A DNA stretch of 64,000 nt from Myxococcales bacterium 68-20 (GTDB taxonomy: Bacteria; Myxococcota_A; Polyangia; Polyangiales; Polyangiaceae): contig MKVQ01000049.1 of assembly GCA_001899635.1 (NCBI GenBank), positions 1 to 64,000 on the forward strand. Reading direction: 5' to 3'. Below, one piece after another: positions 18,945 to 42,962 of this stretch. Each line of letters opens with the position of its first letter. The first letter of the stretch is position 1. The notes under the pieces were generated by a model that saw only the letters and a list, made by a program, of their open reading frames with translations, made no database searches and was not told the DNA's origin. The position numbers and the translations under genes were made by a program.

Positions 18945-19985
18945 ATGAGCGTCTGGACGGACGCGCCTGTGAGCCGGCGGCTGGTGCGTGGCTCGAGCCG
19001 AATCGTACTCGCGATTTCGATGCTTCTTCTCGCCACCGGGTTGGCGTGGGGGGCCGAGGAGGACGAGAGCGGTTGGTCGTTGGATGACCTCGAGCGCCAC
19101 CTCGTCCTCGATTGGGACGCGCCCGCCGAGTGTCCAAGTGACCGCGCCGTACGCGACAGGATTCGCACGCTCCTCAAAACCAAGGGCGAAGCCGAGCATC
19201 AGGTCGTGGCAAAGGCAACGGTCACTCGGACGCCGGCGGGGTATGCGCTCGAGCTCGCCTTCGACGATGGCCCCAAACGCCAGCTGACCAGCGACAACTG
19301 CATCGGGCTCGTCGAAGCCACCTCGATCATCATCGCGCTCGACATCGAAACTCACGTGAAGCCCGCGCCTTCGATCGCGGAGTCGACGCCGACTCCGCAT
19401 CGGCCGCGAGCGGCAAGGTCGACGCGACCTTCTACCCGCCTCCCGTCTTCCGCGGCATCCCCCCTTCGTTTGGCTGTCGGCGCGATGACACTCGGCGACG
19501 TGGGCTCCCTGCCCGAGCCCACCGCGGGGTATCGCGCGACGTTCGCGCTTTCGTATCGAGCCGTTCGCGCCGAAGCGGCTGCGACGGTGTTCGCGTCGCG
19601 GGACGCGGAGGGGCTACGGGAAGGTACGGGGGTTCGAGTCGATCTCAGGACGGGCGGGCTCCAGCTCTGCCATTCTTGGTCGCTCGATCGCTCCGCCGCG
19701 CTCGGCACGTGCCTTGGAAGCGAAGCAGGAAGCTCGACGGTGACAGGCTTCGGTATCACTCGGCCTTCCACGTCGACGGGGCTGTGGATGTCGGTGCTCG
19801 CTTCGTCGCAGCTCCGGCTTCGCTCGGTCCGACCGCTGGTCTTCGGCCTCGAAGTCGGCGCGGTGACGAGTCGGGCTCAGGCCATCATCCGTGGACAAGG
19901 AACGGTCTTCGATCCGGCTCCTTGGCTTGCGCGCGCTACGGTTGGTCTCGAGTTCGAAATTCTTCCGCGTGCGCGGATGGAATGA
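18945..19985 (+). CDS. Operon A, gene 1: exported protein, probable envelope beta-rich protein
   Basis: A 346-residue protein. The signal peptide (residues about 18-36, ending LATGLAWG-AE) is followed by LDWDAPAECPSDRAVRDRI, a linker rich in Thr/Pro/Arg at about 140-170, and a Gly/Ser/aromatic alternating C-terminal half (FALSYRAVRAEAAATVFAS, GLQLCHSWSLDRS, GLWMSVLASSQLRL, ATVGLEFEIL) that looks like membrane beta-strands, although no family was recognised. The protein at 33538 has the same layout (ECP motif, then SC/NC-(x)n-A-x-T-x-IIA-I/A) and the same place before a sigma factor. It is 24 bases upstream of the sigma gene, so probably co-transcribed. It may be the sensor or structural component of the system (inference). 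Confidence 0.8.
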   Translation: MSVWTDAPVSRRLVRGSSRIVLAISMLLLATGLAWGAEEDESGWSLDDLERHLVLDWDAPAECPSDRAVRDRIRTLLKTKGEAEHQVVAKATVTRTPAGYALELAFDDGPKRQLTSDNCIGLVEATSIIIALDIETHVKPAPSIAESTPTPHRPRAARSTRPSTRLPSSAASPLRLAVGAMTLGDVGSLPEPTAGYRATFALSYRAVRAEAAATVFASRDAEGLREGTGVRVDLRTGGLQLCHSWSLDRSAALGTCLGSEAGSSTVTGFGITRPSTSTGLWMSVLASSQLRLRSVRPLVFGLEVGAVTSRAQAIIRGQGTVFDPAPWLARATVGLEFEILPRARME

Positions 19986-20009
19986 GCCGATGCCCCCATA
20001 AAGGTTAAC

Positions 20010-20594
20010 GTGGCTCAGGCTCGCGCCGAAGATCGGCTGGCATCGCTGTCGCTCGCCGACCCAGAAGAATCCGCTGCTGGACCCGTGGTAAATCGGCTGA
20101 GCTTCGAGGCGACCTACGCCGAGCATTTCCCGTTCATCTGGAACTCCCTGCGTGGGCTCGGGGTGCATCCCACGATGCTCGAGGACGCCGCGCAGGACGT
20201 GTTCGTCGTGGTCCACCGACGGCTTCCCGAGTTCCGCGGGCAGGATCACCTGCGGACCTGGCTCTTCGCCATCGCCAGGCGCGTCGCCTCCGACTATCGG
20301 CGGCGGCGGCGGCCGTTCGAGGAGCTCTCCGCTGCGGAGACCGTTCTCGACAAGCGACCGAGCCCCCACGACATCACGGCGCACAACGAAGCCGTGCAGC
20401 TCCTCGAGCGTGCGCTCGAACGCTTGGACGAGCATCACCGCGTGGTCTTCGTCCTCATGGATGTCGCGGAGCTACGCGCCAACGACGTGTCCGAGATTCT
20501 GTCGATCAACATCAACACGGTCTACTCGCGCCTCAATCGGGCGAGGGAACGCTTCAACGAGATCGTGGCTCAGCTCGAGCGCCCGACCCGATGA
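20010..20594 (+). CDS. Operon A, gene 2: ECF-type RNA polymerase sigma factor
   Basis: A 194-residue protein starting at GTG 20010 (AAAGG upstream). Residues about 30-105 form sigma region 2 (YAEHFPFIWNSLRGLGV, LEDAAQDVFVVVHRRL, LRTWLFAIARRVASDYRRRRR). Residues about 130-190 form region 4 (ALERLDEHHRVVFVLMDVAELRANDVSEIL, NTVYSRLNRARERF). It directs RNA polymerase to a small regulon, probably including its own operon. The next gene encodes a single-span membrane protein, the likely partner. Its counterpart at 34596 is clearly related but divergent. Confidence 0.93.
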   Translation: MAQARAEDRLASLSLADPEESAAGPVVNRLSFEATYAEHFPFIWNSLRGLGVHPTMLEDAAQDVFVVVHRRLPEFRGQDHLRTWLFAIARRVASDYRRRRRPFEELSAAETVLDKRPSPHDITAHNEAVQLLERALERLDEHHRVVFVLMDVAELRANDVSEILSININTVYSRLNRARERFNEIVAQLERPTR

Positions 20595-20652
20595 ACCCGA
20601 GGTCCGGCCGAACGCCGAAGGGCAGCCCGATGGGCGGATTGAAAGGAAAGCA

Positions 20653-21441
20653 GTGAGCAAGCTCTCTCCCGAGGCCGCAGCGGTTCTCGCTGCGGCCCGC
20701 AAAGATCTGGGCGCATCCGCAGAGGTCGTCGCGCGTGTAAAGAGCGCGGTCGCTGCTCGTGTGAACGCCGAACCTCCGCCTTCCGGCGTGAAGCCCCGCA
20801 CGGGCTGGTCGACCGTCGGGCGTTTCGGGCACATCGCCGCGTTCGGTCTGCTCGGCGGCGCGTTCGTCGCGGGCTACGTCGCGTCGTCGAGGACGGTGAC
20901 GCCCAACGCGATCACGGTTCCGTCGGAGTCCTCCGCTGAGGACGCCCGTCCGAGCGAGCCACCGCACGCCGACTCGCCCGACGATGGCACGCCGAGCGAG
21001 CTCGCGAATCCCATTCCCACGCTTCCGCTCGCATCGCTGCCGGATCGCCCACTTCCTCGGGCCGAGCGCGCGCCGCGCGTGCGCGAACCTCACGTCCGGC
21101 GACCGCCGATCGAGCCAGCGACCGCCGAGGTGAAGCCTAACGCGACGACGGGCGATGACCTCGTAGAGGAGAGCCGGCTCCTGCGGGCGGCGCAGCTCGA
21201 CCTTCAGGCCCACCGAGCGGCGGCTGCGCAGCGCTCGATCGAGGAGCACGCCCAGCGATTCCCGATGGGCGTCCTGCGCGAGGAGCGCCTCACGCTGCGT
21301 GTGCTCGCCCTTTGCGAGGCGGGAGCGGTCGATGCGGCACGACGCGCGCGCGCCGAGCTCGACCGGAGCTTTCCCGCGACGTCCCACGCTTCCCGCCTGG
21401 CGACCTCCTGTGCGGCGGCAGATCCGGAAGGAGCCCGGTGA
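20653..21441 (+). CDS. Operon A, gene 3: single-pass membrane protein, putative sigma partner
   Basis: A 262-residue protein starting at GTG 20653 with GAAAGGAAAG just upstream. A cytoplasmic N-terminus of about 55 residues precedes one membrane span (residues about 60-78, FGHIAAFGLLGGAFVAGYVA), a long Pro/Glu/Ser-rich linker, and a C-terminal helical segment (residues about 175-255) resembling tetratricopeptide-type helices (LLRAAQLDLQAHRAAAAQRSIEEHAQRFP). Its place after an ECF gene and its topology fit an anti-sigma factor or signal transducer, but no zinc-binding or RsgI-like anti-sigma domain was recognised, so this is inference. The stop is 2 bases before the next ATG. Confidence 0.8.
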   Translation: MSKLSPEAAAVLAAARKDLGASAEVVARVKSAVAARVNAEPPPSGVKPRTGWSTVGRFGHIAAFGLLGGAFVAGYVASSRTVTPNAITVPSESSAEDARPSEPPHADSPDDGTPSELANPIPTLPLASLPDRPLPRAERAPRVREPHVRRPPIEPATAEVKPNATTGDDLVEESRLLRAAQLDLQAHRAAAAQRSIEEHAQRFPMGVLREERLTLRVLALCEAGAVDAARRARAELDRSFPATSHASRLATSCAAADPEGAR

Positions 21442-21443
21442 TC

Positions 21444-22652
21444 ATGCGATCGTTCATGAAAGCGGTCTTTTCGCTCACGCTTGCGTGCTTCACCGCAGGC
21501 GCATGCGCGAACACCCTCGAAGCCGGCGTCGATGACGTCGCGGCGCAGCCCTCGACTGGGCCTTCGTTCACCAACGCAGACGCGGCGGCCGACGACGTTA
21601 CCGAAGCAAGAGACACCTTCACATCGTATTGCCCGTCCAACAAATGCCCGGCGGGATACACGACATGTCCAAACTCGGACTTCCCGTGCGACGTGAACCT
21701 GCTGGCCGACCGACAGAATTGCGGAGCGTGCGGGGTGGTCTGTCCAGAGAGTCAAGAGACGCCAAGTCGAGAGCGGTACGAGTGTGTCGAGGGACGCTGC
21801 GTACTGATGTGCAGCCGCAATCCCAAAACGATGGACTGCGATGGTCTTCCCGACAACGGTTGTGAGGCGAGCGCAGCCTGGGATACCTCCTGCGGGGCAT
21901 GCGGGGTCGTCTGCTCGGACCCGGCCAAGCCCTGCATGCATCAAGGGGGAGACGTCGCCACCGACTACGCATGCGGCTGCAAGGACGGCCTACAGCTCTG
22001 TCAAGGTCGATGTGTCGACATGAAAGACGACGACCTGCATTGCGGCGCATGCCGTAATGTATGTCCGAAAACCGGAGATGGCGGCCCGCTCGATCCGGAG
22101 CTGCATCTTTACTACGGGTGCGTGGACGAGGTCTGCGGTCGTCGCAAATGTGAACCCACCTGGAGCGATTGCGACGGCAATCCCCACAACGGTTGCGAAG
22201 CTTCCATGTTGTCGAACGACAACTGCGGTGCTTGCGGGAACGCCTGCTCTGCAGGTCAACGCTGCCAAAAAGATGTTTACGGCGGTATTCAATGCATGTG
22301 TCCGGATGGACAGTCTTACTGCTCCAGGGGCACGAGCGCAGGCTCATGCCACGATTTCGACTCGGACCCGGACAACTGCGGTGGTTGCAATTTTACGTGC
22401 AGGCGCTTCGACTTCTACACGTCGGTCGGGGTCTGCGTGAAAGGCGTATGCAAACTGGAGTGCCTTACCGGGCAGGCCGACTGCAACGGGAATCAGAGCG
22501 ACGGTTGCGAGGTCAATGTCAGCAGCGATCCGCGCAATTGCGGCGGCTGCGGTATCGTCTGTGATGCAATTGCCGGCCAGGCGTGCGTACAAGGCCGGTG
22601 CGTGGTCGAGCCGTGCGCTCCGGACGAAGACGCCGGGAGGGGGCCGCAATGA
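21444..22652 (+). CDS. Operon A, gene 4: 'CGACG' cysteine-rich lipoprotein
   Basis: A 402-residue protein. ATG 21444 has GGAAGGAG (21426-21433) upstream. The signal peptide ends in TAGAC. After an acidic linker come seven or so units with the core D-x-x-x-CGACGxxC, alternating with DCDG-x-x-x-NGCE and CxxGxC motifs. Proteins of this kind are common in myxobacteria and have been labelled 'tryptophan synthase alpha chain' in databases; nothing here supports that enzyme. It is a disulfide-rich surface protein, probably lipid-anchored in the outer membrane, role unknown. Its stop overlaps the next start as ATGA. The counterpart is at 36077. Confidence 0.9.
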   Translation: MRSFMKAVFSLTLACFTAGACANTLEAGVDDVAAQPSTGPSFTNADAAADDVTEARDTFTSYCPSNKCPAGYTTCPNSDFPCDVNLLADRQNCGACGVVCPESQETPSRERYECVEGRCVLMCSRNPKTMDCDGLPDNGCEASAAWDTSCGACGVVCSDPAKPCMHQGGDVATDYACGCKDGLQLCQGRCVDMKDDDLHCGACRNVCPKTGDGGPLDPELHLYYGCVDEVCGRRKCEPTWSDCDGNPHNGCEASMLSNDNCGACGNACSAGQRCQKDVYGGIQCMCPDGQSYCSRGTSAGSCHDFDSDPDNCGGCNFTCRRFDFYTSVGVCVKGVCKLECLTGQADCNGNQSDGCEVNVSSDPRNCGGCGIVCDAIAGQACVQGRCVVEPCAPDEDAGRGPQ

Positions 22653-23869
22653 ACATCCGATGGATCGTATTCACTTTCGCCGCCGCAGCGTGCGCTTCGA
22701 CGGAGTCCGCTGTCGACCCGGCCGTCCCGGATGACTCTGCCGCCGTTCCCTCGCCTCCGGAGCCGGACGGCGGGCTCGACGCGGCTCCGGATTTGGACGC
22801 GGGACCGTGTACCGACTGCGAGTATTTCCCCGCTGCCTGCTCCGCCGACACGCTCTGCCCCAACGGACTGTTCGATTCGAATCCCCACGGCAGCGGCTAC
22901 GACCCGCGCGTGACGGTGAACGTCATTCGGGGGCGCTCGCCGACGGACGTCTGGGCCGTTGGATCGACCGGATCGATCGCCCGTTTCGACGGCACCTCAT
23001 GGACGCGATTGGATCTGGGCAAGAATGAGACCGTGCGAGGGCTCTGGCTACGTGACTCCGATGAAGTCGCGCTCGTCTCGTGGTGGAGCACCTATTTGCG
23101 CGGTGTCGCCGTTCCCGATGCCGGCGCAGTCCCCTCGGCCGACGGCTGGACCTTCACCCGGCCGCTACTCTCGCCCGCCTTGCCGGAACTGGTGCGCCTG
23201 AACCTGATCGATGCCGTGTTCACTTATGCGTGGAGCGGTCCGGGGTCGTCATCACTTTGGTGTACGTCTGCGGCCAAACCGAACGACGGGCTGAACGGGT
23301 TTACCGGACTGTGGCGTATACGTCGGTTGCCATCCAACGAGCTCGAGCTCCACGCCGCCGTGCCTGGCCCGGTGTGCAGGGACAATGGATGTATGCAAAT
23401 GAAGAGCGTCCATGGCGCTTCGGCGGACGATCTGTGGGCGGTCGGGGAGGTGGGCACCGCGGTGCGCATTCTCGATGCCGACGGTGACACGCCGAGTGTC
23501 AAGCCGGCAAACACCCAGACCTCGAATGCATTGAACGGAGTTTGGGTTGCGTCCACGTCGGACGCCTGGGCGGTCGGTGCGAACGGTACCATCCGGCACT
23601 ATACGGGTGACCCCGTGCTATGGGACGTGGTCTCGGATGTCCCGACGCAGGGCGTGCTCCGAGCCGTTTGGGGTTCCTCCTCGACGGACATCTGGGCCGT
23701 CGGCGATGCCGGCGTCGTCCTTCATTACGACGGAAAGAGCTGGTCGCGTGTGAAGATCGCTGGACTCGGGACGCGGCGCCCGAATCTCACGACGGTCTGG
23801 GTCCCGGCGCCGGGGCATGTCTGGGTCGGAGGGCATGGCGTCATTCTCTCGCTCGGAGGAAAGCCATGA
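22649..23869 (+). CDS. Operon A, gene 5: propeller lipoprotein with DVWAVG repeats
   Basis: A 406-residue protein whose ATG overlaps the preceding stop (ATGA). The signal peptide ends in FAAAAC, followed by a Pro/Asp linker and a CTDCEYFPAAC cysteine cluster. Repeats of D-V/I/L-W-A-V-G-x-x-G-x-x-x-R/H-x-D/Y-G-x-S/P-W (for example DVWAVGSTGSIARFDG and DIWAVGDAGVVLHYDG) indicate a beta-propeller or Asp-box-like fold. Such domains bind ligands rather than catalyse. It is an outer-membrane lipoprotein by inference. The stop overlaps the next start (ATGA). The counterpart at 37291 shares the CxDCEYFPxxCS cluster and repeat pattern. Confidence 0.88.
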   Translation: MNIRWIVFTFAAAACASTESAVDPAVPDDSAAVPSPPEPDGGLDAAPDLDAGPCTDCEYFPAACSADTLCPNGLFDSNPHGSGYDPRVTVNVIRGRSPTDVWAVGSTGSIARFDGTSWTRLDLGKNETVRGLWLRDSDEVALVSWWSTYLRGVAVPDAGAVPSADGWTFTRPLLSPALPELVRLNLIDAVFTYAWSGPGSSSLWCTSAAKPNDGLNGFTGLWRIRRLPSNELELHAAVPGPVCRDNGCMQMKSVHGASADDLWAVGEVGTAVRILDADGDTPSVKPANTQTSNALNGVWVASTSDAWAVGANGTIRHYTGDPVLWDVVSDVPTQGVLRAVWGSSSTDIWAVGDAGVVLHYDGKSWSRVKIAGLGTRRPNLTTVWVPAPGHVWVGGHGVILSLGGKP

Positions 23870-25197
23870 GAGCGACGATTCTCGTCTACTTCGGATGGAT
23901 CGCACTCGGAAGCATTTCGTCGCTCGTGGCGTGCTCGTCGAGTGAACCCGAGCCTCCGATGACGAGCCCGCCGGACTCCGGAGGAATCGCGCTCGGCCCT
24001 GAAGACGCCGGACAGCGCGACCCCGAGGACTCCGGGCGGAGCGGAGCCGAGGCGGGCCCCGGCACGGAGGTCCAGGCACCGAAGTGCACTGACGCCGGCT
24101 GGTGTGAAACGTCATTGCCCGACGAGGACCTCGTCCTGAAGGACGTCTGGCCGCTCGACGGTCGTGCGTTCGCGATCGCGTACAGCCTCACCCTCGGCGT
24201 CAAGGTTCTCGAGTGGAAAGAGAGCGACGCCGCGTGGAGCTACATCGACGACGGCACGCAGAACGAGGATTTCGCGCAGTACGTCGGGAGGATCTGGGCG
24301 CCCAACGAGAACGAGGTCTACTATGGAGTGGACCCGGGCTACATCTATCACGGTACGCGACCGACGCCGCCTGCGACGAAGTGGTCCTGGACACGGCAAA
24401 GGCTCAAAGACAATAGCCATGCGGACATCGTTCATCCGCAGGACGGCTACCCGAAGTATTTTCAGTTGAATGCAAACTACCCGACGCTGGGCATCTGGGG
24501 CACGAGCGTCGACGATGTCTACGCGTGGTTCACAGATACCATCTATCGCCGCACGAAGTTCGATGGCGATACGTTCGAGTGGGTGCCTGAGTACATCGCA
24601 AACGATGCTTCCGGAGCGGCGGAGCACATGTACTTCGTCGCGGCCACCGGGAGCGGGCCCGACGACCTTTGGTTCTCGGGTACGAGGACGAGGTCCCCTT
24701 CGCTCGCCGCCTGCGCCGTCCTCGTGCACAGGACAGGAGGGGACTATCTGCGAATCGCGGACGGCGTCCTCTCCAGCAACACGGGCAGATGCGCTGCGAA
24801 GCCTGGATACCTATCGATCGGGGGCGCCGAGGGCTGGCTGACCGACATACATATGCGGTCTGTGAACGAGATCGTCGGCCTCAAGGGCGCTCGTGACGTC
24901 GTGAAGGTCTCGATCGCAGAGGGAGGGTATTCGGTCTCCGTCGCCACCGTCCCTATGGCCCTGGATCAAGAGCCTTTGAGCTCGTTGTGGGCAGATCCCG
25001 GCAGTCTCTGGCTGAGCGGCTTCGGGACCGTCGTTCGAGCGAGCGGCGACGTTTGGGACGGAGGGGCGTTCCAGCTCTCTTCCGTCGCGGTAACGGGGGC
25101 GCCGCTCGGTCGACATCTCTACCAGGTTCGCGGCACGTCCAACACCAACCTCTGGGCCATCGGTGTCCGCAATGCGCTCCACAAGACGACTCCTTGA
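23866..25197 (+). CDS. Operon A, gene 6: propeller-like lipoprotein
   Basis: A 443-residue protein whose ATG overlaps the preceding stop. The signal peptide ends in SLVAC, followed by an acidic/Pro linker. The folded part starts at CTDAGWCETSLPDEDLVLKDVWPL and contains segments such as FAIAYSLTLGVKVLEW, IWAPNENEVYYGVDPGYIYHG, LGIWGTSVDDVYAWFTDTIY, DDLWFSGTRT and TSNTNLWAIGV. These are W/D-rich repeats suggesting a beta-propeller, but no named family was recognised. The last 26 bases are also the first 26 of the RCC1 gene in another frame. The counterpart at 38445 is closely similar throughout the folded part. Confidence 0.88.
   Translation: MRATILVYFGWIALGSISSLVACSSSEPEPPMTSPPDSGGIALGPEDAGQRDPEDSGRSGAEAGPGTEVQAPKCTDAGWCETSLPDEDLVLKDVWPLDGRAFAIAYSLTLGVKVLEWKESDAAWSYIDDGTQNEDFAQYVGRIWAPNENEVYYGVDPGYIYHGTRPTPPATKWSWTRQRLKDNSHADIVHPQDGYPKYFQLNANYPTLGIWGTSVDDVYAWFTDTIYRRTKFDGDTFEWVPEYIANDASGAAEHMYFVAATGSGPDDLWFSGTRTRSPSLAACAVLVHRTGGDYLRIADGVLSSNTGRCAAKPGYLSIGGAEGWLTDIHMRSVNEIVGLKGARDVVKVSIAEGGYSVSVATVPMALDQEPLSSLWADPGSLWLSGFGTVVRASGDVWDGGAFQLSSVAVTGAPLGRHLYQVRGTSNTNLWAIGVRNALHKTTP
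25172..25197 (+). other. Out-of-frame gene overlap conserved between operon copies
   Basis: These 26 bases encode the C-terminus ALHKTTP of gene 6 and, in another frame, MRSTRRLLD, the N-terminus of the RCC1 gene. The same 26 bases occur unchanged at 39733-39758 in the second operon, although flanking DNA differs. Both reading frames therefore constrain the sequence. Confidence 0.8.
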
Positions 25198-26545
25198 TCG
25201 ATATCCACTCGGCGCGGTCCTGCTTTTGTTCGCATGCGGCGCCGCGGCGAGCTGCTCCAGCGCCGACGACGAAAGGGAGCTTGGTCCTGCGGATGCCGGG
25301 CCGGAAGCGTTCGCGCCCACCGACGATGCCGCGCCGTCCGACGCCGGAGGAGGCGATGTGACGGCGCCTGACGCGGCGCCAGCGCCGTTCGACGGAGGGC
25401 CTCTCCCGGTCGTCTGTAGCTCCGATCCATGCGCGACGGCACTCGTGACGACGCTCGCGCTCGACGACTCGCAACCCAGCGAGGGCTATTGTGCGCTTCT
25501 CCGCGACGGTACGGTGGCGTGCTGGGGCGCGAACGAAGTAGGACAGCTCGGTCGCGGCGACGACGCGGGGACGTCGAACAGCGCGGTAGCCGGGCGCGTC
25601 GTCGGTCTCTCCGAGGTCGAGGAGCTCGACCACACGTGTGCCGTCGACAAAAGCGGAGGCATCTGGTGTTGGGGCACCGGCCCCTACCTTCGCGATGGGA
25701 CGGGCGCGCGCACGACCGAGCGCGCGCCCATCAAGCTGCCGCTTGCACCCGCGAAACACGTGGGGGTCGGAACGGACGTCGCGTGTGCGTCGAACGACGA
25801 CGGGCTGCTCTGCTGGGGAAAGAATACGAACGGAACGTTCGCGCCGCTCACCACGATGCCCGCAGATACGCTCGTCGCACCACGACCGATCGACCTTCCC
25901 AGCGGGCCGCCCATCCGCGAAATCCGCGTGCGTCAGGCTTCATTCGTTCTCCGAGAGGACGGCGCGACGCTGAGCTGGGGCGCAAATCCTCCGCTCGGCC
26001 GCGTCTCCTCCTACACTCCCGATCCGTACCCGCTACCGATCCCTCTCACCGGTGTCTCTTCGATCGACCTCGCGAGCGAGAGTGGGTGTGCTACCGCGGG
26101 CGGCGTCGGTTACTGCTGGGGGCGTCTCAATCTCCGCGATGTTTCGGCCGTGACGCCGCCCGTTCGGACACTTCCCGAGCCGGTCGTGGCACCGGAGCCG
26201 CTCGTTCAGATCGCCACCACGAGCCTATGGGTCGACAAGAGCCTCGGGACCCCGACCGTCCGACGGCAGCGATGGTGCGCCGTCGGCGCCTCGGGCGCCG
26301 TCTACTGCTGGGGACCGAACGCGAACGGTCAGGCGGGCGACGGGACGAAGGAGTTCGCCCACCGCGCGGTCAAGGTGGAGGGCCTCCCGAAGGCCGCTGC
26401 GCGCGTAAAGACGATGCCCGAGTCCACGTGTGCGCTGCTCACGAACGGTAAAGTCTATTGCTGGGGATCGAATTACTACGGACAACTGGGCAACGGTAAG
26501 CCCCGAGCTCGGACCCTCGTGCCCGAAGAAGTGGTGCTCCCATGA
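25172..26545 (+). CDS. Operon A, gene 7: RCC1-repeat lipoprotein (seven blades)
   Basis: A 457-residue protein. ATG 25172 was chosen because it begins MRSTRRLLDR, identical to the second copy, and no later start precedes the hydrophobic segment (GAVLLLFACGAAASC); a GTG three codons earlier is possible. Seven RCC1 units carry the conserved (C/S)WG motif (CWGAN, CWGTG, CWGKN, SWGAN, CWGRL, CWGPN, CWGSN), each preceded by CA-L-x-x-G-x-V. It should form a seven-blade RCC1/BLIP-II-type propeller, a protein-binding platform, on the cell surface. It is translationally coupled to its neighbours on both sides (26-base and 4-base overlaps). Confidence 0.92.
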   Translation: MRSTRRLLDRYPLGAVLLLFACGAAASCSSADDERELGPADAGPEAFAPTDDAAPSDAGGGDVTAPDAAPAPFDGGPLPVVCSSDPCATALVTTLALDDSQPSEGYCALLRDGTVACWGANEVGQLGRGDDAGTSNSAVAGRVVGLSEVEELDHTCAVDKSGGIWCWGTGPYLRDGTGARTTERAPIKLPLAPAKHVGVGTDVACASNDDGLLCWGKNTNGTFAPLTTMPADTLVAPRPIDLPSGPPIREIRVRQASFVLREDGATLSWGANPPLGRVSSYTPDPYPLPIPLTGVSSIDLASESGCATAGGVGYCWGRLNLRDVSAVTPPVRTLPEPVVAPEPLVQIATTSLWVDKSLGTPTVRRQRWCAVGASGAVYCWGPNANGQAGDGTKEFAHRAVKVEGLPKAAARVKTMPESTCALLTNGKVYCWGSNYYGQLGNGKPRARTLVPEEVVLP

Positions 26546-28374: not shown

Positions 28375-28504
28375 GGTCGGCGCGTAGAGGAGGTTGAACG
28401 GCTGGCGCGCAATGCAGAGGCGCTCGCCGGGGAGCTCGGTGTTGCTCAGCGAGGCATGAGCACGAGTTGAGATGACCTGCAGCGGGAAGCTGAGTGAGGC
28501 AGTC

Positions 28505-30646: not shown

Positions 30647-30670
30647 CGGCCTGAAGACTCTCGGCGGCAT

Positions 30671-33371: not shown

Positions 33372-33423
33372 CCGATGTCCGCCCTCGTCGCGGGGCGCGC
33401 TTCGGAGCTCGTGCGAAGGCTAG
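33361..33423 (+). repeat. 63-base direct repeat, first copy
   Basis: It starts in the last codons of the delta-60 gene (CGCTCGAATGA includes its stop) and runs to GGCTAG. It matches 42983-43045 at 58 of 63 positions by eye. The two copies bracket the second eight-gene operon. Confidence 0.8.
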
Positions 33424-33537
33424 CCGCTGACTCCATTCGAGGTCGAGCTGGTCGAGTCGGCGCGGCCGGACCGAAGCGCAGAGACCGCGATCTTCGAAGC
33501 CAACGCGCGGTGGTTTCGGTAGGCTCGCCGATTTGGA

Positions 33538-34515: not shown

Positions 34516-34595
34516 GGCTGAGCTCGATAAATTCGTCGAGGAGGGGCTCTTTTCCGGATAAGCGGGCTGCGAGCGAGCATTGCTCCGATACTCCC

Positions 34596-35198: not shown

Positions 35199-35199
35199 C

Positions 35200-36018
35200 G
35201 TGACCGAAGAAGACATCCAGCGGCTAGCACGCGGCGAGCTCGATGGTGCGGAGCTCGACCGGCTCGAGCGCTTCGTGATCGATACGGCGCGAGACGACGT
35301 CGCCCCTTCGGCAGCCAAGGCTCGTCTCCTCGCATCTCCAGAGATGATGGGGAGCGAGCCGCCGCGCGAGCCACCGATTGGCCGCATGCTTGCCGGTCGC
35401 ACCGGTCACCTCGTCGGTCTCTCGCTGCTCGTCGGTGTCGCGCTCGTCGGCTCCACGATGACCACACCCTCCGGCCGGGACGACGCACACTCCGAAGCGT
35501 CGCCGCTCCGTTCGCCGCCCACGCCGTCGACCCAGGAGAGTGCACCGGCCGAGCCCTCTTTGCCCGCTCCCCCGGTGGCCACTACTCCGCAGGTGCAGGA
35601 AGCGTCGAAGCAGGAGCCGGCCGTCGTGAGGAAGGTCGCGAATGGCCGGTCGCCAACGCGCGGGCCGGCCGAGCCGTCGATGGTTACGCCCTCTCCCGCG
35701 TCGTCGGCCTCTCTGCATCCCGATGAGCTTGCGCCGTCGACGCTCGATCGTGAGGTCGCTCGGATGACGTCCGTGCGCGCGGCGCTGGCGGCCGGCGAAG
35801 CCGAGCGCGCGCTGCAGGGACTGGCCGCGTACGAGGCCGAGTTCCCTGCCGGCGCGTTCACGATCGAGGTCTCGGTCCTGAGAATCGAAGCACTCGTCCG
35901 GAGTGGACGAGCGGCTGAAGCGCGCGACCTCGGGGCGCGCTTCCTCGCGCAGCATCCATCCGGCGCGTCTGCACGTCGAGTGACGCTCTCCTTGCAGAGC
36001 ATCACGCCAATGGATTGA
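35200..36018 (+). CDS. Operon B, gene 3: single-pass membrane protein, putative sigma partner
   Basis: A 272-residue protein starting at GTG 35200, with GGGAG 8 bases upstream and only one base after the sigma stop, so coupled. The N-terminus (MTEEDIQRLARGELDGAELDRLERFV) resembles short anti-sigma N-termini. One membrane span lies at about residues 68-88 (LVGLSLLVGVALVGSTM), followed by a Pro/Ser/Ala linker and a C-terminal helical segment (ALAAGEAERALQGLAAYEAEFPAG, AEARDLGARFLAQHPSG) of tetratricopeptide type. Its architecture matches the protein at 20653. The anti-sigma role is inferred from position and topology. Confidence 0.82.
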   Translation: MTEEDIQRLARGELDGAELDRLERFVIDTARDDVAPSAAKARLLASPEMMGSEPPREPPIGRMLAGRTGHLVGLSLLVGVALVGSTMTTPSGRDDAHSEASPLRSPPTPSTQESAPAEPSLPAPPVATTPQVQEASKQEPAVVRKVANGRSPTRGPAEPSMVTPSPASSASLHPDELAPSTLDREVARMTSVRAALAAGEAERALQGLAAYEAEFPAGAFTIEVSVLRIEALVRSGRAAEARDLGARFLAQHPSGASARRVTLSLQSITPMD

Positions 36019-36076
36019 CGATTTCATCCTGATCCCGCCACGGAGTGCAAGCTCCGACATCTCCCAAGGAGGCTTC

Positions 36077-37294
36077 GTGAGAGGTCGTACGCTCGGGCCC
36101 GCGCTGGCCCTCCCCATCCTATTCCTGATCGCGCCATCGTGCGTCAGCCCGCGGTCTCTCGGCACTGGTTACGACCAAGACGCGGGGGCCTCGCCAAGCG
36201 ATTCGTTCACCGCGGCAGACGCCGGCCCCGACGCGAACGCCGACGCGAAGAATAACCTCACGACGTATTGCCCTTCCGACACGTGCCCCGCGGGATGGAC
36301 GACCTGTTCCTCATCCCGTTTTCCCTGCGACGTGAATCTCAACATCGATCCAGCAAACTGTGGAGAGTGCGGCGCCCTCTGTCCTGAAGGAGGTGACGGC
36401 ACCTGGTACACCTGTGTCGGCGGGAAGTGCACCATCAGCTGTCAGTACGCTCCGCGGCACCTCGACTGCGACGGGCTGCCAGACAACGGATGCGAGATCC
36501 TCGCGAGCACCAACCAGAACTGCGGTGCTTGCGGACTGACATGTTTGGACCCGGACAAGCCGTGCGTCGCACAACCCCACACGGACGGCGACTTTCGCTG
36601 TGGATGTCCGCCGCCCTTCATTTTCTGTGCAGCTCCGTGGCCCCGCTGCGTCGACCCGCGTTCGGACGACATGAACTGCGGAGCATGTGGAAATCGATGC
36701 GATCTGAGCGGAGGCGGTTTGCCCTCGTACGAAAACACCACCTACGGATGCGTGGGGGGTGCATGCGACAAACTTCGCTGTGAGATGAACTGGGCCGACT
36801 GCGACCAGGACATCACGACCGGATGTGAGACCTTCGCGGTCACGACGGAGAACTGCGGGGCATGCGGACTGAAGTGCGGCGCGGGCCAAGAGTGCCTAAT
36901 CAACGAGATGGGTATGCCCGAATGCATGTGCGGCCCAGGAAAGACCGTTTGCAACAAATTTTGCATCGGCGACAGCTGTAGGGGCGAGTGCCGCGACCTG
37001 ACCTCGGACCCCTACCATTGCGGGGCCTGCAACTTTTCGTGCCACTCTAACAACGGCCCATACAGCACGGCAGTCTGCTCGTTTGGCACGTGCCAGCGCA
37101 AGTGCATTCAAGGACGCGCCGATTGCAATGGAAACGTCGCGGACGACTGTGAGGTCGACACGAACAGTGACCCACGGAACTGCGGTGCGTGCGGACGCGT
37201 ATGTGATGCCATTGCCGGCCAGGCGTGCGTTGCGGGCGAATGCGTGCTCGAACCGTGTGACCCGGACCAAGACGGCGGACCGGTGGCGCGATGA
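36077..37294 (+). CDS. Operon B, gene 4: 'CGACG' cysteine-rich lipoprotein
   Basis: A 405-residue protein starting at GTG 36077 with a strong AAGGAGG (36066-36072). The signal peptide ends in LIAPSC. TYCPSDTCPAGWTTCSSSRFPCDVNLNIDPANCGECG lines up with the protein at 21444, followed by the same alternation of CGACG-x-x-C, DCDG-x-PDNGCE and CxxGxC units through to the C-terminus (RNCGACGRVCDAIAGQACV). It is an outer-membrane, disulfide-rich lipoprotein, role unknown. The gap to the preceding gene is 58 bases, unlike copy A (2 bases). It overlaps the next start as ATGA. Confidence 0.9.
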   Translation: MRGRTLGPALALPILFLIAPSCVSPRSLGTGYDQDAGASPSDSFTAADAGPDANADAKNNLTTYCPSDTCPAGWTTCSSSRFPCDVNLNIDPANCGECGALCPEGGDGTWYTCVGGKCTISCQYAPRHLDCDGLPDNGCEILASTNQNCGACGLTCLDPDKPCVAQPHTDGDFRCGCPPPFIFCAAPWPRCVDPRSDDMNCGACGNRCDLSGGGLPSYENTTYGCVGGACDKLRCEMNWADCDQDITTGCETFAVTTENCGACGLKCGAGQECLINEMGMPECMCGPGKTVCNKFCIGDSCRGECRDLTSDPYHCGACNFSCHSNNGPYSTAVCSFGTCQRKCIQGRADCNGNVADDCEVDTNSDPRNCGACGRVCDAIAGQACVAGECVLEPCDPDQDGGPVAR

Positions 37295-38448
37295 AGCACC
37301 GTGAATACGTCCTCATCGCCTTGGGAATCATGGCGTGTGCATCCTCGGAGCAACAGGCGGACGCCGTCGATGACGCGTCGCGAGTTCCCGTCACCGCGCC
37401 CGACGCGGGCGAGATCCTCGACGCCGGGGACGCTGGCGACGACGTCGTCGATGGCCCCGCGTGCAGCGACTGCGAATACTTCCCCGAGACCTGCTCCGAC
37501 GACGTTCTCTGTTCGAACGGTCTGTTCGGCCCCAAGGGTAGCGACAGCTTCGATCCTCGCACACAGATCAACGTGATTCGCGGCCGCTCCCCGAACGACG
37601 TGTGGATTGCCGGGGCAATGGGGGCGATCGCTCACTTCGACGGAACATCCTGGGTCCGCTCGGACCCGGGCCATCCAGAGACGATGCGCGCTCTCTGGCT
37701 CGGCGACTTCGGCGAAGTTTCGCTCGGGATGCTGGACCGCATCTACCTGCACGACGAAAATGGCTGGACCGCCCAATACCTGATTGGACATACAATTTCG
37801 CGACAAAGCTGGATGACATCGGCCTGGACCGCCCCAGGCTCGTCGTCGCTCTGGTGTGCGACCGTGGCCAGGGACCTTGGCGAGACCACGGGGCTCTGGC
37901 GTCTGAGTCATTCGCCATCGACGGGGTTCGCTCTTCGCCCCGGAATTCCGAACGAAGTTTGCCGTGTCGCTGGATGTTCTCAGATGCTCGCGATTCATGG
38001 GCCGTCGGCGAATGATCTCTGGGCCGTGGGGATGGGAGGCTCGATCGTCCGCATCATCGATGCCGAGAGCGAGGAGCCGAATGCCGTGGGGCACAACAGC
38101 CAGACATGGAACTCGCTCAATGGAGTGTGGGCCGCCTCTGAGTCCGAGGCGTGGGCCGTTGGTGTCATGGGCACGATTCGTCACTTCACGGGTGCGAAGC
38201 TCTGGGAAATCGTGCCGAGCCCGACCACGGCTCGGCTGAACGCGATATGGGGCACGTCGGCGTCCGACGTTTGGGCGGTCGGCGAGGGTGCGATCGTTCT
38301 CCACTACGACGGCAAGAGCTGGTCACGTGCGAAGATCGGAGGTCTTGGAATGCAGCGCCCGAATCTCACGGCCGTATGGGCCGCGGCGCCCGGACGTGTC
38401 TGGATCGGTGGAGAAGGCGTGCTTCTTTCCCTCGGAGGGAAACCATGA
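37291..38448 (+). CDS. Operon B, gene 5: propeller lipoprotein with DVWAVG repeats
   Basis: A 385-residue protein starting at an ATGA overlap. The signal peptide ends in GIMAC. After the linker, CSDCEYFPETCSDDVLCSNGLFG matches the cluster in 22649, then the same repeats (DVWIAGAMGAIAHFDG, DLWAVGMGGSIV, DVWAVGEGAIVLHYDGKSWSR). Shorter than its counterpart by about 20 residues. It is a likely ligand-binding propeller on the outer membrane. The stop overlaps the next start (ATGA). Confidence 0.88.
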   Translation: MKHREYVLIALGIMACASSEQQADAVDDASRVPVTAPDAGEILDAGDAGDDVVDGPACSDCEYFPETCSDDVLCSNGLFGPKGSDSFDPRTQINVIRGRSPNDVWIAGAMGAIAHFDGTSWVRSDPGHPETMRALWLGDFGEVSLGMLDRIYLHDENGWTAQYLIGHTISRQSWMTSAWTAPGSSSLWCATVARDLGETTGLWRLSHSPSTGFALRPGIPNEVCRVAGCSQMLAIHGPSANDLWAVGMGGSIVRIIDAESEEPNAVGHNSQTWNSLNGVWAASESEAWAVGVMGTIRHFTGAKLWEIVPSPTTARLNAIWGTSASDVWAVGEGAIVLHYDGKSWSRAKIGGLGMQRPNLTAVWAAAPGRVWIGGEGVLLSLGGKP

Positions 38449-39758
38449 GGGGCGCATTCGTGCTCGCCGGAGGTGTCGTCTCGCTCGCCATGCTCAGCGC
38501 GGCCGCCTGCGCGGAATCGACATCGGACGAGGCCCTCGCCTCGGACGCAGGCGAGAGTGACAGTGCACTCAGTGTCCCCGAGGGAGACAGCGCACCTCCG
38601 GACGCCGAGGCCGGAATCGACGCTGCCGTCAATCCATCAAGGTGCAGTGCAGCCGGATGGTGCGAGACGACCTTGCCGGACACGGATCTCGTGATGAGAG
38701 ATCTGTGGCCGCTGCAGAATCGAGCCTTCGCCATTGCGGAGAGCCCCACGCTCGGCGTGAAAGTCCTCGAATGGGACGATGCGAACGAAACGTGGGAGTA
38801 CATCGATGACCACACGCAGAACGCGCCGGGGATGGGGGCCTACGCCGGCAAGATATGGGCACCGAACGACGACGAGGTCTACTACGGCGTCGCGCCGGGC
38901 TACATCTACCACGGTACTCGTCCCGTCCCGCCTGCGAAGGCCTGGTCATGGACTCGACAAGCACTCCCCGACAACGCTCGCCCGCCAACGCCGTCGCAGC
39001 CGAGAAACGGGTATCCGCCCTACGAGGCCATGGGGATCAACTATCCGGCCCTCGGCGTGTGGGGCACGAGTCGCGACGACGTTTACGCGTGGTTCACGAA
39101 CACCATCTTCCATTGGAAGAGCGTCGACGGCGCCGCACCGACGTGGGTCGCAGAGTACATCATCGACGACGTCAGCAGCACTGCGGAGCGCGCGTTCATT
39201 CTCGGAGCCTCGGGTATCGGTCCTGACGACATTTGGTTCGCCGGCGGCAGGAGCCGTTCCACCGCCCCCGGGTGCGGGATCGCCGTGCGAAAGATGTCGG
39301 GCGTCTATCGGCGCGTCGCAGATGCCGCCTTGCCGAGCAACCTGTGCGTCGCAAAAGAAGGGCACTTGCTGATCGAAGGTGGGCGGCAGAAGGCGTTCCT
39401 GACGGATATCCAGCTCGTCGCACCGAACGAGGTCGTCGCGCTCAAGGGAGCTCGTGACATCGTCAAGATCTCGGTGAACGGAGACAGCTACTCGCTCGCG
39501 ACCTCGAATGTTCCGCGAGAGGTCGCGGCGACCGAAACCTTCTATTCGCTCTGGGCTCGCGACGGCTCCACCTGGCTGAGCGGGCCAAGCCGGATCGTCC
39601 GCGGGACGGATGTGTGGGAGGACGGAGGCTATCAAATTTCGACCATTTGGGCGGACGGTACGCCGGTCAACCTGCCGCTCTACAAGGTCCGCGGCACGTC
39701 AAACGAAAACCTCTGGGCAATTGGTGTCCGATATGCGCTCCACAAGACGACTCCTTGA
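38445..39758 (+). CDS. Operon B, gene 6: propeller-like lipoprotein
   Basis: A 437-residue protein starting at an ATGA overlap. The signal peptide ends in LSAAAC. The folded part (GWCETTLPDTDLVMRDLWPL, YYGVAPGYIYHGTR, LGVWGTSRDDVYAWFTNTIF, DDIWFAGGRSRS, TSNENLWAIGV) is closely similar to 23866 in order and motifs. The C-terminal ALHKTTP coding segment overlaps the RCC1 start by 26 bases. Family and function are not known; a surface propeller is inferred. Confidence 0.88.
   Translation: MRGAFVLAGGVVSLAMLSAAACAESTSDEALASDAGESDSALSVPEGDSAPPDAEAGIDAAVNPSRCSAAGWCETTLPDTDLVMRDLWPLQNRAFAIAESPTLGVKVLEWDDANETWEYIDDHTQNAPGMGAYAGKIWAPNDDEVYYGVAPGYIYHGTRPVPPAKAWSWTRQALPDNARPPTPSQPRNGYPPYEAMGINYPALGVWGTSRDDVYAWFTNTIFHWKSVDGAAPTWVAEYIIDDVSSTAERAFILGASGIGPDDIWFAGGRSRSTAPGCGIAVRKMSGVYRRVADAALPSNLCVAKEGHLLIEGGRQKAFLTDIQLVAPNEVVALKGARDIVKISVNGDSYSLATSNVPREVAATETFYSLWARDGSTWLSGPSRIVRGTDVWEDGGYQISTIWADGTPVNLPLYKVRGTSNENLWAIGVRYALHKTTP
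39733..39758 (+). other. Out-of-frame overlap, second copy (identical 26 bases)
   Basis: The same 26 bases as 25172-25197 encode ALHKTTP plus stop in one frame and MRSTRRLLD in another. The identity is in contrast to many substitutions in both genes around it. Confidence 0.8.
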
Positions 39759-41154
39759 CCGATACGCCATGGCGCCCGGCATGAGCCGGCTCCTCGCGCG
39801 CGTCACGTTCGTCGCCGGCACGTGCTGCGCGACGGCCTGCGCGGTCGCAAGTTGCACGAGCGACGAAGGCAGCGAACCTCCGCCGGAGGCCGACGCTGGG
39901 AACGAAGAAGCACCGCCCCCCACGACGACGGAGCCGGTCGATGCCGGCGTGCACGTGGAGCATCCTGACGCGGCGCCGTTCGACGGCGGCCCCCGCGACG
40001 TCGTGTGCGAGTCGTCTCGTTGCGCCACGGCGCTCGTGACGACGCTCGGCGCGAACGCGAACGATCGAGCCGAAGGCTTCTGCGCTCTCTTGAACGATGG
40101 AACGGTGGCGTGCTGGGGCGCGAACGGGGGCGGGCAGCTCGGCCGAGGCGACGACGCCGGGAGCCTCGACGGTCCGTCGGCGGAGCGCGTCGTCGGGATC
40201 GAGGGCGCGACGCGGCTCGACCATACGTGCGCGCTCGACAAGACTGGCGCGGTTCGTTGTTGGGGAACGGGTCCGCACCTTCGCGACGGCGGCGGCACGA
40301 TCACCACGGACCGAACTCCGGTGACGCTCCCTCTCGCTCCGGTCGCGACCATGGGGATCGGCGCGGAGGTCGGATGTGCCGTCGTCGACGAAGGCATCGT
40401 CTGCTGGGGAAGGAACTTCCACGGGCAAGTCGCTCCGTTCACCTCGTCCGCTCCTGGCACGGCGCTCGCACCGGCGCCGGTCGATCTTCCACTCGGAGCG
40501 CCGATCCGGGCGCTCGTCGTGTCGAAGGCATCGTTCGTACTCCGCGAAGACGGCACCCTCGTGAGCTGGGGCGCAAACCCTCCCCTGGGCCGGCTCTCGT
40601 CGCTCTTTCCCGATCCGACTCCGACGCCGATCGACCTTGCTGGAGTCTCGTCGTTGGACTCGAGCTACGAGAGCGCGTGCGCGACGGTGGCTGGTATTGG
40701 CTATTGCTGGGGCGATATCGTGGAGAGGCTTCACGAATACGTGAATCCAGCCGCTCCGCGCATCGACCGAGCGCTTCCGGAGCCCGTCGTCACACCCGAG
40801 CCGATCGTACGAATTGCCACGACGCGTAGCATGTACACGAGGGGGACATACGGCATCATGTTCACCACTCCCCAGCGGTGGTGCGCGGTCGGCGCGAGCG
40901 GTGCCATCTACTGTTGGGGCTTCAACGAGAGCGGTCAGGCGGGGGATGGGACGAAGCTCGACGTCTTGTCCGATGCCGTCAAGGTCCAGGGGCTTCCCGG
41001 ACCAGCGGCCGACGTGAAGACGACGCCGAACGCCACATGCGCCCTCCTGACGAGCGGCAAAGTGTACTGCTGGGGGTCGAACTACTACGGACAGCTCGGC
41101 AGCGGGAATCTCAAAGTGCCGAGCCTCACGCCACAGGAGGTGGCCCTGCCATGA
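39733..41154 (+). CDS. Operon B, gene 7: RCC1-repeat lipoprotein (seven blades)
   Basis: A 473-residue protein. ATG 39733 gives the same MRSTRRLLDR start as the first copy; alternative ATGs at 39769 and 39781 would also leave a signal peptide (LLARVTFVAGTCCATACAVASC). The seven WG-bearing blades align with those of 25172, including CATALVTTL, GTVACWGAN-x-x-GQLGRGDDAG and VYCWGSNYYGQLG. It has a longer N-terminus and extra residues in the fifth blade (REY-type insert near GDIVERLHEYVNP). It is a probable protein-binding propeller on the cell surface. The stop overlaps the next ATG. Confidence 0.92.
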   Translation: MRSTRRLLDRYAMAPGMSRLLARVTFVAGTCCATACAVASCTSDEGSEPPPEADAGNEEAPPPTTTEPVDAGVHVEHPDAAPFDGGPRDVVCESSRCATALVTTLGANANDRAEGFCALLNDGTVACWGANGGGQLGRGDDAGSLDGPSAERVVGIEGATRLDHTCALDKTGAVRCWGTGPHLRDGGGTITTDRTPVTLPLAPVATMGIGAEVGCAVVDEGIVCWGRNFHGQVAPFTSSAPGTALAPAPVDLPLGAPIRALVVSKASFVLREDGTLVSWGANPPLGRLSSLFPDPTPTPIDLAGVSSLDSSYESACATVAGIGYCWGDIVERLHEYVNPAAPRIDRALPEPVVTPEPIVRIATTRSMYTRGTYGIMFTTPQRWCAVGASGAIYCWGFNESGQAGDGTKLDVLSDAVKVQGLPGPAADVKTTPNATCALLTSGKVYCWGSNYYGQLGSGNLKVPSLTPQEVALP

Positions 41155-42962
41155 GGAGTCTCAAGCTAGCGGCGGGCGTGATGGCCGCCGGTCTCGCGGT
41201 CACGCTCGCGACGATGACGATGGGAGCCTGCAGCGGAGAACGTTCCGAGTTCGACACTCGAAACGAGAGCTTCCTCAACGACGCCTCTCCGGACGCACCA
41301 GCGCCCGGCCCGGGCTGTGGGCACCAATGTTCGCTCGACGGACGTTCGGTCATCAACACCTGCACGGGGGAGACGGTCCAAACCTGCGCGGCGGACCTCG
41401 CGTGTGGCGCCGGGGTTTGCCAGCCCCCATGTGCTGCAGCGGCGGCGGATAAGAGCTCGAACGGCTGCGACTTCTACTTCCAGGAACCTCGGTTCGAATA
41501 CACCACCATCAGTCAGAGTTGCTACGCAGCGTACGTCGTCAATACGTCGATGCAGCCCGTCGAGGTGTCGATGGAACTCGAGGGAAAGCCGCTCGATCTG
41601 TCGCGCGCACTCTATCGCGCCGAGCCTGGGAGCGCGGAGATGACGCCGCTCGTCGGACCGATCCCACCGGGTGAGAGTGCCATTCTGTTCATCTCGGACA
41701 AGTCACCCGACACGCCCCTCACCCCGCTCGAGAGCGCTTATCTCGGTTGTCCCGAAGGCGTCGTCCCTGCGTCGTACGTCGGAGGCACTCCGTGGGGGAC
41801 CGGCTACGGCGTCGCCTTTCACCTGACGACCAACGCACCGGTCAGCCTGGCGGCCGTTTTCCCGTTCGGCGGCGCGTCATCCGCTTACTCGTCCGCCACG
41901 CTCCTGCTTCCCGTCCCGACGTGGGCGAAGCAGCACATGATCGTCAACGCCTGGGAAATGTTTCGGGACGGCTTCGGTCCTGGCGCGCAGATCTTCGCTG
42001 CCGAGGACGACACCGAAGTGACGATCGTTCCGTCTCGCCCGATTCAGAGCGGGAAGGGCGTCACCGGGGCCCCCGCGCGCGTTCCCGTCACGTATCACCT
42101 CGACAAAGGGCAGCTGCTGCAGATCGCGCAGAACGAAGAGCTCACCGGAAGCCTCGTCTCGTCGACCAAACCGACGGCCATCGTCGGCGGACACGCGTGC
42201 GCGAATGTTCCGACACACGTCACGACCTGTGATGTCCTGGCTCAGCAAATCCCGGCGCTCGAGCAATGGGGACACGAATACGTCGGCGTTGGCTACGCGC
42301 CACGAATGGGCGGCGAGGACGAATTGATGATGTATCGGATCATTGCGGCGCGAGATGGGACGCGCCTCGACTATGATCCGGCGCTTCCCGCTGGCGCGCC
42401 GGTCACGATGTCCGCGGGTGAACACGTGTCGTTCCCCGCCGGTGTCGGCGAAGCATTCGTCGTTCGAACGCAGGACGCCGATCACCCCATTTACCTTGCC
42501 GCATACATGCCCGGGCACGGCGCTGCTGGTGGTATTTGGACGGGGTCAGACGGCCGTGGCGATCCGGACTTCGTCAACGTCGTTCCCGCGGGCCAATACA
42601 TGAGCTCGTACTCGTTTTATGCGGACCCAACGTTTGCGGACACGTCGCTCGTTCTCGTTCGAGCCAAAACGAACGGGGAGTTCAAGGACGTCTCGCTCGA
42701 GTGCGCCGGCACTCTGACGGATTGGAAGCCGGTCGGGACCCGCGGCGACTACGAGTTCACCAGAGTCATCCTCTCACGGAACTACCGGCCGGGGGACTCG
42801 TTCGATGGCGGCGGCACGTGTCAGTACGGGCTCCAGCGTACCAAGAGCGATGGCCCATTCACCGCGACGATCTGGGGAACGGCCTACTGCGTCAGCTACG
42901 GGTACACGGGCGGAATGGCGTTGCGGAAGCTCGTCGAGATCCCGCTCGACGTCCCTCACTGA
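41151..42962 (+). CDS. Operon B, gene 8: IgGFc-binding-domain lipoprotein
   Basis: A 603-residue protein starting at an ATGA overlap. The signal peptide ends in TMGAC. CGHQCSLDGRSVINTC, SSNGCDFYFQEP, AAYVVNTSMQPVEVSM, IPPGESAILFISD, AVFPFGGASSAYSSATLLLPVPTW, EQWGHEYVGVGYAPR and QYMSSYSFYADPTFADTSL match the counterpart at 26542 along the full length (roughly 60% identity by eye in these stretches). It is the last gene of the operon and a likely adhesion/recognition lipoprotein. Confidence 0.92.
   Translation: MRSLKLAAGVMAAGLAVTLATMTMGACSGERSEFDTRNESFLNDASPDAPAPGPGCGHQCSLDGRSVINTCTGETVQTCAADLACGAGVCQPPCAAAAADKSSNGCDFYFQEPRFEYTTISQSCYAAYVVNTSMQPVEVSMELEGKPLDLSRALYRAEPGSAEMTPLVGPIPPGESAILFISDKSPDTPLTPLESAYLGCPEGVVPASYVGGTPWGTGYGVAFHLTTNAPVSLAAVFPFGGASSAYSSATLLLPVPTWAKQHMIVNAWEMFRDGFGPGAQIFAAEDDTEVTIVPSRPIQSGKGVTGAPARVPVTYHLDKGQLLQIAQNEELTGSLVSSTKPTAIVGGHACANVPTHVTTCDVLAQQIPALEQWGHEYVGVGYAPRMGGEDELMMYRIIAARDGTRLDYDPALPAGAPVTMSAGEHVSFPAGVGEAFVVRTQDADHPIYLAAYMPGHGAAGGIWTGSDGRGDPDFVNVVPAGQYMSSYSFYADPTFADTSLVLVRAKTNGEFKDVSLECAGTLTDWKPVGTRGDYEFTRVILSRNYRPGDSFDGGGTCQYGLQRTKSDGPFTATIWGTAYCVSYGYTGGMALRKLVEIPLDVPH

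Follow-up and report, generated by a model that had tools for sequence, protein, structure and literature searches.

The window, a 64,000-nt stretch of contig MKVQ01000049.1 from Myxococcales bacterium 68-20, contains two blocks of eight genes, copies A and B, lying about 5 kb apart (Table 1). The families are denoted E (exported protein), S (sigma factor), T (single-span membrane protein), C (Cys-rich lipoprotein), P and Q (propeller lipoproteins), R (RCC1 lipoprotein), and I (IgGFc lipoprotein). All sixteen genes listed in a preliminary description of this DNA were verified, with identical order and strand in both copies, as were the overlaps of 4, 4, 26, and 4 bases at the junctions of the last five genes. 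Pfam identified sigma-70 regions 2 and 4, a Stig1-like Cys-rich protein, RCC1, and IgGFc_binding, and returned no significant family for E, T, or Q in the window copies.

Table 1. Features of the two eight-gene blocks (positions in the window)
Feature	Position	Strand	Description	Evidence or remark
A, E	18945..19985	+	exported protein, predicted OmpA-like barrel	AlphaFold pLDDT 86; VIA-align Z 17.1 to OmpA
A, S	20010..20594	+	ECF sigma factor	Pfam Sigma70_r2 9.6e-12, r4_2 1e-9; TIGR02937 3.8e-23
A, T	20653..21441	+	single-span, probable anti-sigma factor	span; TPR/BamD-like similarity; coevolution with S
A, C codons 1-32	21444..21539	+	lipoprotein signal peptide, EST module	tracks EST over 111 operons
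A, C codons ~33-62	21540..21629	+	interval holding the module joint	synonymous-site identity; chimera L226
A, C mature part	21630..22652	+	Cys-rich (Stig1/MXAN_6577-like) lipoprotein	
A, P	22649..23869	+	propeller lipoprotein	AlphaFold pLDDT 88, pTM 0.83; Foldseek YCF48
A, Q	23866..25197	+	second propeller-type lipoprotein	family profile, cross-matches P
A, R	25172..26545	+	RCC1-propeller lipoprotein	Pfam RCC1_2 2.6e-25
A, I	26542..28374	+	IgGFc_binding-domain lipoprotein	Pfam PF17517 9e-104; stop is 3' end of exchange unit
B, E	33538..34515	+		26% identity to A
B, S	34596..35198	+	ECF sigma factor	Pfam r4_2 3e-12
B, T	35200..36018	+	probable anti-sigma factor	
B, C	36077..37294	+		signal peptide 36077-36172; joint ~36173-36268; mature Cys-rich part from 36269
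B, P	37291..38448	+	propeller lipoprotein	54% identity to A
B, Q	38445..39758	+	propeller-type lipoprotein	52% identity to A
B, R	39733..41154	+	RCC1 lipoprotein	Pfam RCC1_2 8e-28
B, I	41151..42962	+	IgGFc_binding lipoprotein	Pfam PF17517 1e-99

We then compared the two copies gene by gene. Global identity was 26% in E, 37% in S, 27% in T, 49% in C, 54% in P, 52% in Q, 60% in R, and 55% in I, and all eight values were well above those of shuffled controls (z 4.8 to 84). The lipoproteins, for which 55-65% similarity had been estimated, are slightly less alike than that (49-60% global identity), and the sigma factors are indeed less alike (37%) than the lipoproteins.

The host genome is Labilithrix-like (Polyangiaceae) and 11.9 Mb in size. 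Initial profile searches of this genome gave ~60 clear homologues of Q and ~135 of I; reading frames were called in 2.1 Mb around the IgGFc matches and searched with iterated profiles of the eight families. Anchored on C, this yielded 128 operon loci, a number that may be a lower bound because several T genes lie near contig ends. All eight families are present in 111 loci, and the dominant gene order is E-S-T-C-P-Q-R-I. The operons span ~1.2 Mb, or ~10% of the genome, on 35 of its 52 contigs, and the two strands carry 67 and 61 loci. S and T adjoin 123 of the 128 cassettes (the lipoprotein genes C to I), usually directly upstream. The two window blocks are members of this dispersed family of ~128 operons, and the earlier view of the block as a defined, recurring unit that keeps its order and coupling was borne out, both here and in other Labilithrix genomes. 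The copies are intact but divergent: the median nearest-neighbour identity is 0.60 in C and 0.70 in I, the best partner in C reaches at most 0.75 for every locus, and even the closest cassettes differ by ~10-20%. No identical 127-mer was shared by any two cassettes when all were compared; the copies are therefore not assembly duplicates.

The preliminary description had interpreted A and B as a tandem duplication of one eight-gene operon, present in two specificities. Their shared order, strand, and overlaps and their 5-kb spacing agree with such an event, but there are 128 copies in the genome rather than two, and B is outranked by several other loci for every gene of A. A and B were not closest relatives in any gene, with ranks of 3-93 among 117-127 other loci; B ranked 10-57 among the relatives of A in the cassette genes and 25-93 in the regulatory genes (E, S, and T; hereafter EST). 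Moreover, the two parts of A differ in their closest relatives, which are C40_26896 and C43_178032 for the cassette and C43_627662, C1_277798, C23_301689, and C51_5237 for the regulatory genes. The preliminary description had itself named better matches elsewhere as an argument against its view, and this comparison, once run, showed A and B to be distinct members of a family scattered through the genome. We therefore assign practically no probability to a tandem duplication.

The operon consists of two modules, the regulatory trio EST and a cassette comprising the mature part of C together with P, Q, R, and I, and these modules have been repeatedly swapped between copies. Mantel correlations of pairwise-identity matrices were 0.72-0.77 within EST and 0.89-0.96 within the cassette, but 0.10 between the two. 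In trees of the 111 operons, EST had 65 well-supported splits and the cassette 81, of which one was in common; 64 of the 65 EST splits were contradicted by the cassette tree. The within-module controls shared 51 of 69 splits (CP vs QRI) and 29 of 49 (E vs ST). For neighbouring operons, cassette similarity was 0.54 vs 0.37 and EST similarity 0.31 vs 0.28, a pattern (cassettes alike, EST not) that would result from local copying of cassettes into loci keeping their own regulators. The shuffling is neither complete nor continuous, as the residual between-module correlation (r 0.10, p < 0.0005) fits a few unbroken EST-cassette pairs, and some pairings, L225, L236, and L248 among others, are intact between species. 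The sigma factors are more divergent than the lipoproteins because the trio and the cassette differ in history, rather than through faster change of one of them after a joint duplication.

The modules change over inside gene C, just after the signal peptide, and the 3' end of the cassette is at the I stop codon. Over the 111 operons, C residues 1-32 correlated with EST (r 0.31, permutation sd 0.022), whereas their correlation with the cassette was nil (r 0.002). Third-codon-position identity was averaged over the 27 closest cassette pairs. It reached 0.76-0.78 in each of P, Q, R, and I and 0.66-0.79 in the part of C beyond codon 60 (averages per cassette gene 0.69-0.78, up to 0.86), compared with 0.30-0.40 in C codons 1-40 and 0.30-0.41 in E, S, and T. 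Synonymous-site identity in close cassette pairs climbed from background between C codons ~40 and ~60, so that the similar stretch starts near C codon 50, and homology dropped to background right after the I stop codon, delimiting an exchanged five-gene cassette of ~6.8 kb.

Two loci of the related MAG ACE_MYX5 were found to be chimeras relative to this genome. In L226, the part ending at nt 5000 matched contig 40 (84%) and the part starting at nt 4924 matched contig 17 (82%), so that its parents overlap in ~76 nt within the joint interval; in L259, the corresponding matches were to contig 6 (70%) as far as nt 4970 and to contig 16 (92%) from nt 4994. The joint position is identical in both species. 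The apparent shuffling could in principle be an assembly artefact, given that the sequence at the joint is conserved and that several T genes are found near contig ends. However, no identical 51-mer around the joint was found in any two loci, several EST-cassette pairings recur in independently assembled genomes, and the joint is alike in both species, making an artefact very improbable. DNA is conserved at both cassette ends, which suits homologous recombination. A site-specific recombination motif at the joint was considered and rejected, as the conservation there mostly reflects conserved Cys codons with only moderately conserved third positions, and does not point to a recombinase.

We next characterised the EST proteins. 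E comprises a signal sequence, a periplasmic domain with two conserved Cys (C63 and C119 in copy A), a Pro-rich linker, and a C-terminal barrel. In the AlphaFold model (pLDDT 86), residues ~171-341 form an 8-stranded OmpA-like barrel, which aligned with OmpA over 164 aa at 2.7 Å (VIA-align Z 17.1) and superposed on the OprF and OmpA barrels with Z 16-17. Pfam detected no C-terminal peptidoglycan-binding OmpA domain in 60 members, the barrel itself being C-terminal. The model of E thus combines a periplasmic domain with an outer-membrane barrel of the OmpA type. S has the features of an ECF sigma factor, as judged from its sequence: sigma-70 regions 2 and 4 and no other sigma domain. Copy A exceeded the Pfam cut-offs for r2 and r4_2, and copy B exceeded that for r4_2 and fell just under that for r2 (23.2 of 24), while TIGR02937 was above its cut-off in both.

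A hydrophobic span is present in 109 of the 123 T proteins, and the periplasmic C-terminus shows TPR/BamD-like similarity; Pfam found no recognised anti-sigma domain in 22 members. A sigma-adjacent gene, one span, and an extracytoplasmic domain fit the layout of transmembrane anti-sigma factors. S and T overlap by 4 bp in 79 of 123 loci, and this overlap, together with their coevolution, suggests an anti-sigma role. T is therefore a probable, still putative, anti-sigma factor.

Among the cassette proteins, C contains dozens of near-invariant Cys in a pattern matching MXAN_6577-like (NF041328) and STIG1 (PF04885) proteins, although its NF041328 score of 80.6 lies under the cut-off of 100 and C is longer, with many repeats. 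P gave only a weak propeller match in Pfam; its AlphaFold model (pLDDT 88, pTM 0.83) had a YCF48 propeller as its best Foldseek match (6.8e-12), and P is accordingly modelled as a YCF48-like propeller. The Q profile cross-matched P. Sequence search returned no solved structure for the IgGFc lipoproteins. A lipobox-like motif was present in 86-89% of P, Q, R, and I and in 71 of 128 C proteins (55%), for which start calls are approximate. Read directly, the window copies carry the signal peptide with lipobox Cys that characterises lipoproteins, and the five proteins would be located at the cell surface.

The cassette genes are translationally coupled. C and P overlap in 104 of 128 loci and P and Q in 108 of 123, Q and R overlap by 26 bp in 51 of 121, and R and I by 4 bp in 68 of 125. 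The spacing between T and C varies, with a median of 35 bp and a 4-bp overlap in 22 loci. The overlapping genes suggest balanced production of a complex. The cassette likely encodes a surface complex in which a Cys-rich rod is combined with three propellers and a binding domain of the IgGFc type. Because it has only binding-type folds and no recognised enzyme domain, its role is most likely surface recognition or adhesion, and the partner could be prey, kin, matrix, or phage.

We then examined how the modules are distributed. With the C profile, 128 cassettes were found in this genome, 40 matches in G122 (ACE_MYX5), 12 in G123 (ACE_MYX7, 83% complete), 1-4 in five further genomes of the genus, and none in four. 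Full cassettes were found only in some Labilithrix-group genomes, with about 1 to 40 copies besides this one. In most genomes of the class, the Q profile gave partial matches to common propeller repeats, which were left out of the cassette counts. In other Polyangiaceae (Minicystis, Polyangium, and Byssovorax), IgGFc_binding (PF17517) genes belong to the same domain family as I (~40% identity) but stand without C, P, Q, and R. The E family was present in 137 of 179 genomes of the order Polyangiales, and E, S, and T were contiguous, without the cassette, in most of 20 loci inspected elsewhere in the order; at several of these, other lipoproteins or Cys-rich exported proteins followed. As EST occurs through the order and full cassettes were found only in the Labilithrix group, EST appears to be the older module, of general use, and the cassette a more recent cargo whose expansion together with EST took place in a single lineage.

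Taken together, these findings are best explained by dispersed, separately wired sense-and-display units whose cassettes are slowly reassorted, a reading that we regard as probable. E would sense a condition at the outer membrane and relay it through T, which would then release S to transcribe its own locus, so that EST would set when, and the cassette what, is displayed. Homologous recombination or gene conversion, acting through the conserved cassette ends, would have copied cassettes from locus to locus, each locus retaining its own regulator and signal peptide. The outcome would be a repertoire of surface assemblies for recognition or adhesion that differ in their wiring. As the closest cassettes differ by ~10-20%, this repertoire would change on an evolutionary rather than a generation time scale.

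Control of the cassette by S is inferred from gene order, coupling, and coevolution. Scans with k-mers and an ECF consensus revealed nothing convincing as a shared ECF-type promoter motif upstream of E, S, and C, and a GATTTT motif upstream of S was discarded as a promoter since it appears to be the coding end of E. The absence of a shared motif in these scans, the nearly independent histories of the modules, and the occurrence of EST without the cassette in other genomes might indicate that the cassette spread passively beside common EST loci and is not under EST control. We consider this unlikely, however, as S and T lie beside 123 of 128 cassettes, usually directly upstream with a short T-C spacer, and EST elsewhere also precedes exported lipoproteins at several loci. 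Furthermore, the C signal peptide is on the EST side, and the cassette is therefore in a reading frame begun by the EST module.

A stronger version of the separately wired units is a combinatorial recognition system, in which >120 units would actively exchange their signal inputs (barrel, anti-sigma factor, and sigma factor) relative to the five-protein surface complex, always at one joint following the signal peptide. We put this forward only tentatively. If true, its logic would be like that of recombining receptor repertoires, but with whole multigene cassettes.

In Borrelia (vls/vmp) and Anaplasma (msp2), the 5' end and signal peptide of a surface protein gene are fixed, and the mature part is replaced via conserved ends. 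The present loci likewise keep the 5' part with the signal peptide, exchange the mature part, and have conserved ends, and rapid antigenic or phase variation, with silent cassettes converted into an active site within a population, might be envisaged. However, nearly every copy here has its own sigma factor, the copies are intact, and no silent archive was seen in the gene content; the lack of a common 127-bp word between cassettes further implies that the exchanges are old. Such variation is accordingly quite improbable. The present system also differs from these conversion systems in that the exchanged unit is a five-gene cassette of ~6.8 kb, with regulators at nearly all loci and no recent identical donors.

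In the mechanosensing SigX/CfrX/OprF system of Pseudomonas aeruginosa, as in EST, an ECF sigma factor is combined with a putative anti-sigma factor and an OmpA-like outer-membrane barrel (PMC8999054), and by this parallel with OprF-CfrX-SigX, EST may constitute a trans-envelope relay. CfrX is small and soluble, and an ion channel is involved (PMC8999054). Here, by contrast, T spans the membrane and carries a TPR domain, and the three genes lie side by side in >120 copies, joined to a lipoprotein cassette. Bacteroides genomes contain many paralogous ECF sigma/anti-sigma loci, with SusC/SusD-type surface proteins. This arrangement of many loci, each with its own regulator pair and surface lipoproteins, resembles the present one, whereas here E is a small barrel, no enzyme domain was recognised, and regulator and cargo are reassorted at one joint. 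In neither block did Pfam detect a TonB-dependent receptor or a SusD family.

That one eight-gene operon family makes up a tenth of a bacterial genome, with regulator and cargo histories nearly fully uncoupled, bears on how large bacterial genomes are built and on why myxobacteria need so many surface complexes. The ~120 regulator-cargo combinations constitute a natural experiment on the separate evolution of signalling and surface specificity, and >120 natural trios of ECF sigma factor, anti-sigma factor, and outer-membrane barrel in one cell provide material for tests of insulation and cross-talk. No published description of this operon family was found in the open-access literature on IgGFc proteins and myxobacteria, on paralogous ECF/lipoprotein operons, and on Labilithrix (titles and abstracts and some full texts). 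Overall, parts of the system are reminiscent of known surface loci under ECF control and of known cases of cassette conversion, but the combination of a multigene cassette, >120 separately regulated loci, a joint behind the signal peptide, and a tenth of the genome is, to our knowledge, without precedent.

The layout of the operon varied among its copies in the same organism's genome. Some copies carried an extra RCC1 gene immediately 3' of the IgGFc gene (contig:position C21:106587, C36:134538, C42:244142, C45:11539, C44:117973 and C49:153731), as did loci L236 and L243 of ACE_MYX5, a related Labilithrix-group MAG. In others, the OmpA-like barrel gene (E) was relocated 3' of the IgGFc gene (C43:185168, C48:186386, C48:687818 and others), or the cassette of lipoprotein genes was divergent from the ECF sigma and probable anti-sigma genes (S-T) or from E-S-T (C4:444613, C23:240259 and C44:198704). 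The displaced genes usually still lay near the cassette; position was variable and association mostly constant. Three short IgGFc remnants (C48:255582-256021, C23:209637-209900 and C38:44359-44556), one with an internal TAA, look like debris from cassette loss or exchange.

Two genes separate copies A and B in the window, and both may be members of the operons' surface repertoire.

Genes between operon copies A and B
Product	Window positions
RCC1 protein containing six Cys-rich repeats of the TNFR type	28472-30646
DUF5122 propeller protein with lipobox-like start	30897-33371

Pfam returned no matches for the long window reading frames near the operons at 8579-10378, 48160-49962, 56513-58924 and 61917-63455.

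In a genome from another family of the order (G022 C195, L220), high-scoring homologues of the cassette-type propellers (P, Q) and RCC1 protein (R) were present, despite the absence there of a match to the Cys-rich lipoprotein (C); transfer or a binning error is possible. Other myxobacterial loci (L251, L287 and L296) contained lone IgGFc genes or fragments adjoined by S plus E or T, perhaps an ancestral EST-IgGFc arrangement. At further Polyangiales loci (L313, L316, L317, L319, L310, L324, L325 and L328), E-S-T was followed by different lipoproteins or by 25-43-Cys proteins. The EST module may have a general, as yet undescribed role in regulating surface lipoproteins across Polyangiales.
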